44,583 nucleotides of DNA from Natronococcus amylolyticus DSM 10524 (lineage in GTDB: Archaea > Halobacteriota > Halobacteria > Halobacteriales > Natrialbaceae), in the NCBI RefSeq assembly GCF_000337675.1, contig NZ_AOIB01000013.1:147650-192232 (forward strand). Reading direction: 5' to 3'. The notes under the pieces were generated by a model. That model did no database searches. It was given only the letters and a program-made list of their open reading frames with translations, and had not been told where the DNA came from. Of this stretch, positions 8,094-12,056 are shown piece by piece. Every line of letters begins with the position of its first letter. The stretch's first letter is position 1. The position numbers were made by a program, and so were the translations under genes.

Positions 8094-11000
8094 TTACCAG
8101 TACTGGTCGAGCCCGGTCTGTTCCTGGCCCGATTTTATCTCTTCCCAGGAGACGTCCAACGCCTCGAGGATCCGCGAGATCGGCCCCTTCAGCGTCTTCT
8201 CGAGCATCGTATCGTAGTCGACCGCGAACTCCTCGGGGATCTGATCGTCGTACTCGAAGCAGATGACGTCGGGATCGCGCTTGAACGCGCCGTAGACGGG
8301 ATCCCGGCGCGCGTTGAGTCCCTCCTCGTTCTCGAGTCGCTCGAAGAAGGCGGGATCGACGCGCTCGAGGTAGAGCCGTTTCGGCTTGCTTCCGCGCTGG
8401 AAGTTCGTCCCGAGCACCCGGTTTGCGTACTTGGCGCCCCGAACCTGGGCCGTGTCGGTGTCGTAGTTGTCCAGGCGCTTGCCGATCCCGCCCGGGATGG
8501 CGATCTCCTCGAGGCTCACCTCGCCCGTGCGGACGTCCTCGATGACGCCCTGGACGTACTCCTTGGCGCCCTCGATATCGCCGTCCCTGACGATCATCTC
8601 GATCACGCGGTGTTGGACTTCCTTCGTGATCGGGGCGATGTCCGAGCGCTGGTACTCGAAGCCGACGATGTCGATGTCGTCGACGTCCTTCCCTTCCTTC
8701 CAGGTAATGTGGCCAGCGTAGCGTTTCTTCTTGCCCGCCTGGAAGAAGCGCCGGTAGAGCTTCTCGAACTCGATCTGGAAGCGGTGGAACTCCGCGTTGA
8801 GTTCGGTGCGTGCGAAGTCGTCGTACCGGTCGTTGATGTGTTCCTCGATCTCGAACGATTGCTCTATCGCCTCTTCCTTCGAGACGTCGGGTCCGAGCTC
8901 GAGCATGACTGAATCGGTGTCACCATAGGTAACTTGATAGTTCATCTCAGTCGCAGCAGTCTCGGTAAATTCGATGACTTCGCGCCCAGTAGCGGTAATT
9001 GCGGATGCTGCCTCCTTATCATATAGTCTGAATTGTTCCCACCCTGAGACACCATATAGGGATTGCCCGACGAACTGGAACTTCCCGTTTCGTCCCGCAA
9101 GCAGCGTGTGATTGTCCTCGACGGTAACACAATAGACGCCGTTTTCGGCGGTGCTTCGGGACGAACTTCGATGCATCCGAAGCGTGTTCTTCGCCCCTTC
9201 GGTGACGTAGATCCGCCACGTGTCGCTATCACGACCGTAGCTCGCGGTCAGGCCGAGGTGTGCACAGAGCCGCAGAACGTCGTCCCGGAGCTCGTCGCTC
9301 GAGGTGGAGTAGCGCCACGAGTTCACCTGTCGATCGCCATCCCCGTCGATGAGTACGTCCAGAAACCGTCGCTTCTGTCGACGGCTCCGATCGAAGACGA
9401 ACTCGGGGATTCGTTTCTCGAAACTCCCCTCGCCACAGAGCTCGGTCACGAGATCCGCGAGAAGCTTCGACGTGATCGTATACGATCGATCGTCGGCGTA
9501 CGAATTGAATCCCATCCCGTCGAGTAGTTCGCCGATCGTCGTATGGTGATTTTTCCCTCCGTCGGCGACGGGGCGATCGTCCTGCGCGAGTTTGACGGTC
9601 GTCGCAGAGCCACGAAAGTTCTCGCCGAACTGCTTGTCCTCGGACGTGTATACGTTTCCTTCCGTCACGAACCAGGCAAGCAGATCGAGGAAGTCGTCTC
9701 CGTCGTACGTCCGCGGAATCCACTTCCGGCCGGATTCCCGGTGAACGAAGCTCATCTCACAGACGTCTTCGATGTACTCGCGGTGCCGCTCGAACTCCTC
9801 GGCGGTGAACACGTATCCTACCTCCCCTACGTCGGCTTTCGGCACGCGACGGGGTGTCCATCCCAGCTCCGCGGTGAACGTGTGGCCGTGTACGGACGGC
9901 CGAACCCATACTTCGTACTCACCGTCGATCAGTTCCGTAAGATCGACGGTTTCGAGTTCGTCACCGTCGGGCCCCTCCCAGTCGTGGGGAAGCTCGTAGT
10001 TCGTCGCCCGGTCGAGATCACCTGCCTCAACGAACCCGTATCCGTCTTCCGTGATCCCGTTAGTCTCGTTCTTGCGGACGAGCATTCGGTGGTTCGGCGT
10101 GACACTGAAATCGATCTTGCTCGTCTCGATATCGATCAGATCACCGCCGTAATCGGGGTAGGCATGAGTTTCGACGACGGGCTTGGCTTCCAGTTCTTCG
10201 GTTTCCGGATCGAGCGAGTACACCACGTCACCGATCTCGAGGTCGGTAATACCTCGGACGCCCTCGGGAGTCAACACCTCCGTGTCCGGCGTGAAACAGT
10301 TCATAATAACCTTGACAGCTCCCTGCTGTCGGTCGTACTGCTCGTATTCGGGTGAGCCGGGCTCGTGGTCGTTCCGAAGCCCCTTCTTCTCCTCGCGCTC
10401 GGCGAGCAGCTCCGTGATCATCTCGCGCATCACGCCGTCGGGCTCCTTGCGAAAGTGGATGGGCTCGGGTTGGGTCGGCGCGGTGTAGGTCTCGCCGTCG
10501 TACTCGTCGGGATCGATCCGCGTCTCCGGCGAGGCGTTGATCGTCGTCATGCACATCGGATACAAACTCTTCAAATCTAGAACAGTTACGTTCTCTTTGA
10601 CCCCAGTAATCGGGTCGAAGACGGCCCCCCCCTCGTACTCCTCCCCGCCTTCCTGTTGTCCTTTCGAGGGTAGCGCGAACTGCCCGTGGGCCTGGTGAAG
10701 GACGTACATGTCGACCGCGTCGCCGGGTGTGGGGGCGTCCTCTAACTTGCAGCCGACGAACGCGCGCACCTCGTCCCAGAACGGGATGATGCTCTGCTGA
10801 CGGTCGAGCTCGACGCAGATCTCGACGTCCCGGAGGTTGTACGCGAGCAGCTGGGTGGGATCACCTTCCCAGAGGTCACCGATGTCGCCCGCGTAGCGCT
10901 CCTTGCCGACCCCGAGCTCGGACTCGCCGACGGCGTCGAGCCGGTAGGAGTCGAGTTCGGAGAAGACCATCCGCTGGTAGCCGTACAGCAGGTCGAAGAC

Positions 11001-12056
11001 GACCCGGCCCTTGATGTCGGGGCCGCCCCAGTTGCTGCGCCAGACCTCGTCGACCCGCGAGAGGCGGTCGATCTCGAGGTCGTAGTCGTGGCCGCCTTGG
11101 AGCACCTCGAGCCGGTCCAGCAGGTACGGCGCGTCGAAGTCCTCGAAGTTCCACCCCGTCAACACGTCGGGGTCCGTTGCTCGAATGTAGTCGATAAAGG
11201 CCTCGAGCATCGCTTCCTCCTCCTCGAAGCTCCGCACCTCGTGGTCGAGCGGTCCCTCGATGGGATCGTACTCCTCGACCGCGTCGGGGATCGGCCCGTC
11301 GCCGATCGGCGCCTCGTAGAGCCACATGACGTACTCGTCTCGGTAGGAGTCGTGGCTCGTGAGACAGATGATCGGTTCCTCACCGTCCTCGGGGAACCCG
11401 GAGCGGTCGTCGACCTCGATGTCGAACGTCTGGACCCGGGGCTCGGCGTCGACGTCGGCCGCCTCGACCTCCTCGTGGGGAACGACCAGCGAGTCGTCCT
11501 CGGCCCGTCGCTCGGGAACCCGGATTCCGCTGCGAACGTCCTTGTCGATGAGAAACCGGTTCGGGAAGAGGATGTCGGCCTCGTAGTGTTCGAACTCGTC
11601 GCGGACCTGGCCGACGTCCCGCGGCGTCTGGCCGAAGATCTTCGTTAGCTTCTCGCCGCGGATGCTCTCGTAGGGTTCGCCGTCCTCGCCGACCTCGCGG
11701 CTGCCGGTGAGTCGGTCGTAGGACTCCTCGGGCGGCCGCTCGAGGGACTCCGTCGGCGCGTAGAAGTACGGACGAAAGCCGACGACCTGGACGTGCTCGA
11801 GCTCGCCGTCGGCCGTCCGGCCGAAGACGTGCATAATCGGACGTTCGTCGTCGCCGTAGCCGGCGATGGTGTAGTCGACCTGCATTACGGCGAGCTCGAG
11901 CGCTCCCGTCGGCTCCGGAAGCGTCTCCTCGCGAACGTCGATCACTGCTGTGCTCTCTCCCGTTCCGTCGCCGGCGACGGCGGCTGCCTCTTCGTCCGGC
12001 CGTTCGGAAGACTCGCGGGAAAACTTCGCGAGTCCGGTCTGGCCCGCCTCGGTCAT
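8094..12056 (-). CDS. polB: Family B DNA polymerase PolB with intein
   Basis: The replicative B-family polymerase: 1,320 codons, of which 908 are extein. The 3'-5' exonuclease motifs are present: FDIEV (Exo I, near residue 210), GWNFEDFDAPYLL (Exo II, near 302) and YNLRDVEI (Exo III, near 405). Polymerase motif A is DLKSLYP near 495, motif B is KVIMN/SLYG split by the intein after residue 586, and motif C is YGDTDS near 1045. All catalytic Asp residues are present, so the spliced enzyme should be active. The N-terminus has an acidic extension of about 50 residues. The ATG at 12056 lies 28 bases from a TTAAAAA box, implying a leaderless mRNA. Codon usage changes sharply in short tracts at motifs A, B and C (see findings). 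It diverges from the small-protein operon at 12167. Confidence 0.97.
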   Translation of the reverse strand: MTEAGQTGLAKFSRESSERPDEEAAAVAGDGTGESTAVIDVREETLPEPTGALELAVMQVDYTIAGYGDDERPIMHVFGRTADGELEHVQVVGFRPYFYAPTESLERPPEESYDRLTGSREVGEDGEPYESIRGEKLTKIFGQTPRDVGQVRDEFEHYEADILFPNRFLIDKDVRSGIRVPERRAEDDSLVVPHEEVEAADVDAEPRVQTFDIEVDDRSGFPEDGEEPIICLTSHDSYRDEYVMWLYEAPIGDGPIPDAVEEYDPIEGPLDHEVRSFEEEEAMLEAFIDYIRATDPDVLTGWNFEDFDAPYLLDRLEVLQGGHDYDLEIDRLSRVDEVWRSNWGGPDIKGRVVFDLLYGYQRMVFSELDSYRLDAVGESELGVGKERYAGDIGDLWEGDPTQLLAYNLRDVEICVELDRQQSIIPFWDEVRAFVGCKLEDAPTPGDAVDMYVLHQAHGQFALPSKGQQEGGEEYEGGAVFDPITGVKENVTVLDLKSLYPMCMTTINASPETRIDPDEYDGETYTAPTQPEPIHFRKEPDGVMREMITELLAEREEKKGLRNDHEPGSPEYEQYDRQQGAVKVIMNCFTPDTEVLTPEGVRGITDLEIGDVVYSLDPETEELEAKPVVETHAYPDYGGDLIDIETSKIDFSVTPNHRMLVRKNETNGITEDGYGFVEAGDLDRATNYELPHDWEGPDGDELETVDLTELIDGEYEVWVRPSVHGHTFTAELGWTPRRVPKADVGEVGYVFTAEEFERHREYIEDVCEMSFVHRESGRKWIPRTYDGDDFLDLLAWFVTEGNVYTSEDKQFGENFRGSATTVKLAQDDRPVADGGKNHHTTIGELLDGMGFNSYADDRSYTITSKLLADLVTELCGEGSFEKRIPEFVFDRSRRQKRRFLDVLIDGDGDRQVNSWRYSTSSDELRDDVLRLCAHLGLTASYGRDSDTWRIYVTEGAKNTLRMHRSSSRSTAENGVYCVTVEDNHTLLAGRNGKFQFVGQSLYGVSGWEQFRLYDKEAASAITATGREVIEFTETAATEMNYQVTYGDTDSVMLELGPDVSKEEAIEQSFEIEEHINDRYDDFARTELNAEFHRFQIEFEKLYRRFFQAGKKKRYAGHITWKEGKDVDDIDIVGFEYQRSDIAPITKEVQHRVIEMIVRDGDIEGAKEYVQGVIEDVRTGEVSLEEIAIPGGIGKRLDNYDTDTAQVRGAKYANRVLGTNFQRGSKPKRLYLERVDPAFFERLENEEGLNARRDPVYGAFKRDPDVICFEYDDQIPEEFAVDYDTMLEKTLKGPISRILEALDVSWEEIKSGQEQTGLDQYW
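9063..10298 (-). mobile_element. PolB intein with LAGLIDADG homing endonuclease
   Basis: A 412-residue in-frame intein (residues 587-998 of the precursor) inserted between N and S of motif B (VIMN/SLYG). Block A starts at Cys1 (CFTPDTEVLTPEG). Block B is VTPNHRMLVRK with the conserved T-x-x-H. Two dodecapeptide (LAGLIDADG/DOD) motifs are visible: LLAWFVTEGN (near residue 790) and FLDVLIDGDGD (near 899). Both keep an acidic residue at the catalytic position, so the endonuclease may be active. The C-terminal splice region is HTLLAGRNGKFQFVGQ, followed by Ser+1. The last intein residue is Gln, not the usual Asn, and the penultimate is Gly, not His. Boundaries were set by restoring the uninterrupted motif KVIMNSLYG. 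Confidence 0.93.

Follow-up and report, generated by a model that had tools for sequence, protein, structure and literature searches.

Foreign-type codon tracts at the intein sites of a haloarchaeal polB gene: a reading as short imports at homing endonuclease targets

The polB gene of Natronococcus amylolyticus DSM 10524 carries short tracts of foreign-type, A/T-rich codons at its intein sites. The gene lies in a window of 44,583 nucleotides, the whole stretch of DNA analysed here. We lean towards the view that the tracts are short polB pieces from other haloarchaea, recombined in at homing endonuclease target sites and presumably kept as alleles that could no longer be cut. Empty intein sites are usually regarded as never visited or as vacated without trace. 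Should they instead hold imported recoded DNA, past contact with an endonuclease would be recorded in their codons, and homing resistance by silent change would become directly testable in natural populations. Phylogenies and strain typing that rely on these conserved motifs of the polymerase would then mislead.

Results

The polB gene, its intein and its codon tracts

The features discussed below are as follows (^ marks an insertion point).

8094..12056, minus strand: polB, a family B DNA polymerase whose 908-aa extein contains a single intein (Pfam DNA_pol_B 3.6e-43, exonuclease 1.3e-22)
11147..11148, minus strand: polB-d, the fourth intein site, unoccupied and located in the exonuclease motif GWN^FEDFD (junction between 11148 and 11147); relatives have 451-aa inteins at this junction
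10551..10610, minus strand: A tract, spanning codons -14 to +6 at the unoccupied a site (junction between 10569 and 10568), with bases absent from congeners
10560..10589, minus strand: core of the A tract, -21 to +9 nt, GTA ACT GTT CTA GAT TTG AAG^AGT TTG TAT; a similar block occurs in a-empty polB of other families
10305..10322, minus strand: small patch of A/T-rich codons preceding the b site, GGA GCT GTC AAG GTT ATT; A/T at 5 of 12 third positions
9063..10298, minus strand: polB-b intein, 412 aa, with LAGLIDADG endonuclease (Hint_2, intein_Nterm, LAGLIDADG_3), inserted at VIMN^SLYG
9042..9062, minus strand: the seven codons that follow the b intein, TCC CTA TAT GGT GTC TCA GGG, like b-occupied flanks
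8910..9041, minus strand: remainder of the B-C tract, running through the unoccupied c site (junction between 8919 and 8918); A/T-rich allele class II, in conflict with the gene tree

The polB-b intein has its Hint splicing domain, its LAGLIDADG domain and the VIMN^SLYG insertion, and the same 412-aa intein occupies the b site in many Natrialbaceae. Its C-terminal residue is Gln (VGQ^S), where Asn would be typical; the Gln end is common to nearly all polB-b and polB-a inteins fetched. The preliminary description took motifs A, B and C for the three known PolB insertion points. Sites a, b and c are indeed known, but haloarchaeal polB has four, with polB-d listed among them (PMC4071816). In the window polB, site d is empty and has no A/T-rich tract.

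The foreign-type codons quoted earlier for the tracts are present in the sequence as stated. The third-position A/T fraction was 0.50 in codons 481-500, 0.42 in the 13 codons upstream of the b intein, and 0.58 in the roughly 50 codons from the b intein to past motif C, against a background of 0.12 in codons 1-470 and 0.11 downstream of the tracts. The stretch from motif A to the intein had been described as host-like, in agreement with its fraction of 0.087. The best 20-codon window of polB had 13 A/T third positions, a value reached in 0 of 5000 permutations, whose mean was 7.9. The tracts are foreign and located at intein sites, as first proposed.

Lineage specificity

The window genome groups with Natronococcus. 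Among its nearest relatives, Natronococcus sp. A-GB1 (L068) has a polB intein at c only, A-GB7 (L032) and N. jeotgali (L033) have one at b, and a MAG (L034) and the congener L112 have none. A-GB1, A-GB7 and the window strain form a closely related trio, with inteins at c, b and b and three different B-C alleles. Same-amino-acid codon identity between the window polB and L068 was 0.91-0.92 in the first 280 and last 245 codons, 0.90 in the A tract and 0.57 in B-C. In the A tract, L032, L033, L034 and L112 reached only 0.30-0.45 identity to the window. Since the A tract is shared with L068 and not with the other congeners, we place its acquisition in the ancestor from which both the window strain and A-GB1 descend; the low B-C identity between these two indicates that B-C changed again after they separated. 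The tract codons are not a pattern of all haloarchaeal polB genes, as close congeners are without the A tract.

A tract was also observed in the intein-free congener L112, where codons 288-305 at the empty d site are A/T-rich (GAT CCA GAT ATT TTA ACC GGT TGG AAT) and differ from the flanks of d-occupied alleles.

Origin of the A tract

The preliminary description offered precise loss of a former intein as one origin of the A tract. The comparison with occupied alleles does not support this. The +1 serine at polB-a was TCN in 29/29 a-occupied alleles of the order, while the window has AGT; AGY occurred in 57/181 empty and 0/29 occupied alleles (p=6.7e-5, with genomes treated as independent). 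The flanks of the 29 occupied alleles consisted mostly of GC-rich codons. An A block with at least six A/T codons was found in 0/29 occupied and 11/181 empty alleles, a difference that was not significant, and across the whole order A/T richness at site a showed no per-codon difference with occupancy. Apart from the class of the +1 serine, only the Cys codon at +6 (TGT/TGC, p=4e-4) differed with occupancy at this site.

The closest match to the A tract beyond the genus, among 392 genomes of the order, was an a-empty allele from another family (G408, L207), which was 90% identical. Over codons -14 to +6, identity to L207 was 0.90 (gene mean 0.74), and identity to congeners was 0.72-0.77 (gene mean about 0.90). 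Fourteen bases in codons -25 to +15 are absent from seven congeners; L068 shares 12 of them, L207 shares 10, and L208, from a further family, shares 9. The block GTA ACT/AGT GTT CTA/CTT GAT YTG AAR^AGT recurs in several other-family alleles; as these loci were picked for matching the A tract or B-C, their number is no frequency.

The A tract adjoins the a junction, as a co-converted flank would, but it does not match occupied flanks, with AGY at +1 in 0/29 of them and an a-empty allele as best match. Set against the gene background, it is closer to a distant lineage than to congeners. Because AGT is absent from a-occupied flanks and the tract is closer to a-empty L207 than to congeners, its sequence probably came in from a donor that lacked the intein, and an a-intein lost from this site is not its source.

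L207 itself has a d intein. Its a, b and c sites are empty, each with an A/T-rich block, and the interval between b and c is GC-rich; in this respect it is a cleaner example than the window polB.

Origin of the B-C tract

B-C alleles divide roughly into a host-like class and an A/T-rich class II with specific codons shared across genera, the latter mainly in b- and c-free genomes. Most of the window B-C is class II, and its nearest alleles in the B-C tree are those of L034, L112 and L033. The tree of this tract disagrees with that of the rest of the gene. At b, GGY at +4 was found in 41/41 occupied and 84/115 empty alleles (p=4.6e-5, with genomes treated as independent). The window b flank shares AAC at -1 and GGY at +4 with occupied alleles, a resemblance of a few codons only, and GTC TCA after the intein as in the b-occupied L045. 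Judged by these codons, only the first seven or so after the window b intein look like a co-converted b flank. The middle part of B-C lies outside any endonuclease footprint. In the related pair L126 (c-occupied) and L128 (c-empty), B-C divergence was 0.21, near the background of 0.18.

A donor search for B-C in the 392 order genomes found nothing above 87%, with best matches of 85-87%. Viral and plasmid donors of the tracts were also considered and rejected; the best viral polB genes were 52-58% identical and without the tracts.

Concentration at intein sites across haloarchaeal polB

In 156 haloarchaeal polB genes, selected independently of their tracts, 492/526 windows with excess A/T codons lay at sites a, b, c or d or between b and c, regions that make up 123/871 windows. 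Only 6/871 common circular shifts equalled this concentration, and most of the excess windows were at empty sites. Taken singly, b and c were strongly enriched in this unbiased scan, d weakly (p=0.022), and a was not (p=0.54). Other conserved polB stretches had almost no excess windows, the exception being one truncated gene, that of Halolamina pelagica (L105). Its frame covers 728/908 reference positions, possibly owing to a draft frameshift, and the odd A/T window, at codons 198-224, is away from any intein site. Even genomes free of inteins showed a mild rise in mean A/T at B-C.

Among 41 disjoint nearest pairs of Natrialbaceae, synonymous divergence peaked at codons 581-655 (about 2.0-2.4x background), with a smaller peak at site d (1.4x). 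Pairs discordant for the d intein were elevated at d in 5/5 cases versus 5/36 both-empty pairs, and pairs discordant for b were elevated in B-C in 13/14 versus 8/23. In several pairs with both b sites occupied, B-C divergence was 0.00-0.04 at a background of 0.12-0.15. A/T enrichment extended about 10-12 codons to each side of occupied d and a sites. The dependence of divergence on intein discordance and the near-identical flanks of b-occupied pairs indicate that flanks travel with inteins in Natrialbaceae polB. Conversion of flanking exon during homing, as suggested in the preliminary description, therefore occurs in this gene, but it fails to explain the window A tract.

AU tests rejected the gene tree for every short segment, controls included; the analysis therefore relied solely on how strongly each segment conflicted with that tree. 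Conflict was largest of all in B-C (653 lnL units), compared with 199-423 in segments away from b-c. The A segment, at 286 units, was unexceptional family-wide.

The mcm gene

A second gene was analysed in a small sample of 50 Natrialbaceae mcm genes, 30 empty and 20 occupied. The surroundings of the three mcm intein sites held 83/111 excess-A/T windows (91/676 windows in all), and those near intein sites were mostly in empty alleles at site a. The +1 serine codon TCC was present in 11/14 occupied versus 4/36 empty alleles at mcm-a (p=9.8e-6) and in 6/8 versus 0/42 at mcm-c (p=1.8e-6), with genomes treated as independent in both tests; at mcm-c the amino acid at +1 also differs in some empty alleles. 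The +1 codon tracks occupancy and silent codons are irrelevant to protein splicing, so the link is at the DNA level. It must reflect endonuclease recognition, co-conversion, or both.

The window's own genome (L307, G000:C15:39500-44700) has two mcm inteins. One, at PGTGK^S, is a mini-intein of 181 aa, too small for an endonuclease; the other, at SSAGL^T, has 523 aa.

Discussion

Our favored explanation is that homologous recombination concentrated at homing endonuclease targets pastes in short foreign polB pieces. An endonuclease, resident or brought in by mating, would cut the site, and repair would copy a short stretch from whatever related DNA is at hand. A template whose silent codons differ at the cut site would be retained, since it could no longer be cut. 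The A tract (about 60 bp) would derive from an allele without the a-intein, related to alleles now found in other families, and would have entered the lineage before the window strain and A-GB1 separated. The B-C tract would for the most part represent one form of an older, A/T-rich class of alleles that circulates in Natrialbaceae. The foreignness of the tracts, their location at intein sites, the cross-family match of the A tract and the association of flank codons with occupancy are observed; the cut as trigger of the exchange and endonuclease resistance as the reason for retention are inferred. Against this explanation stand the lack of a near-identical donor among the sampled genomes, the best being 90% for A and 85-87% for B-C, the non-significant difference in the A block between occupied and empty alleles, the missing enrichment at site a taken singly, and the position of the middle of B-C beyond any endonuclease footprint. 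With clearly less confidence, we hold it possible that a pool of silently recoded, intein-immune polB and mcm target alleles exists across haloarchaeal families, spread by endonuclease-provoked recombination.

Co-conversion of exon flanks during homing, followed by precise loss of former inteins at A and C that left the flanks behind, would account for flanks moving with b and d inteins in sister pairs, for the A/T enrichment around occupied d and a sites, and for the obligatory +1 Cys codon in all d-occupied alleles. We nevertheless consider it rather unlikely as the origin of the window tracts. The window AGT is found in none of the 29 a-occupied flanks, which are mostly GC-rich; the A tract is most similar to an a-empty allele from another family; and most excess-A/T windows belong to empty sites. 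Silent changes could also have built up in place, one by one, for endonuclease resistance and with no import. Any silent change raises A/T in a GC3-rich gene, the core A block of about 30 nt has the size of an endonuclease target, and insertion-point codons differ between occupied and empty alleles in both polB and mcm. Such build-up appears improbable, as unrelated families made identical choices (GTA at -7, GTT at -5, AGT at +1), class II codons of B-C are shared across genera, and the tracts are longer than a target site.

Two explanations dispense with inteins. Conserved catalytic motifs offer good homology for short-tract recombination and might form replacement hotspots of their own, but other conserved polB stretches are nearly free of excess windows, site d and the mcm intein sites have them, and divergence follows intein discordance, which makes this very improbable. 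Conserved codon use at the motifs, imposed for instance by slow translation or RNA structure, would fit the mildly raised B-C mean in intein-free genomes. However, the pattern is lineage-specific and near bimodal, with congeners that use host codons; such a constraint is refuted as a general rule and hardly credible otherwise.

A silent change at the cut site of a homing endonuclease or gene drive would block cutting while the protein is kept, and resistance alleles at such targets are of this kind. If a pool of intein-immune alleles exists, it would be a natural counterpart of gene-drive resistance alleles. In contrast to the latter, the alleles described here look imported and not made by local mutation, and their resistance would follow from the altered silent codons.

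In the literature searched, of which our coverage was partial, we found no description of silent tracts at intein sites. The intein homing cycle, with polB-a, -b, -c and -d in Halobacteria (PMC4071816, PMC1654191), involves the same four sites, patchy occupancy and repeated gain and loss. It describes the element, whereas the feature here is turnover of the empty target DNA. Studies of homing in haloarchaeal mcm and polB concern the same genes and the same element family: alteration of the polB target lowers homing by experiment (PMC3024317), and neighbouring codons can move with mcm inteins (PMC10643990). Those reports deal with a flanking codon and amino acid; the tracts here are silent, 60-150 bp long, present at several sites and mostly at empty ones, and appear to include imports from intein-free donors. 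The group I intron of plant mitochondrial cox1 leaves co-conversion tracts (e.g. PMC3192709), likewise short foreign exon stretches at a homing site, which are used to trace intron gain and loss. Unlike that system, the element here is an intein, and the A tract matches empty alleles and not a flank carried by the element.
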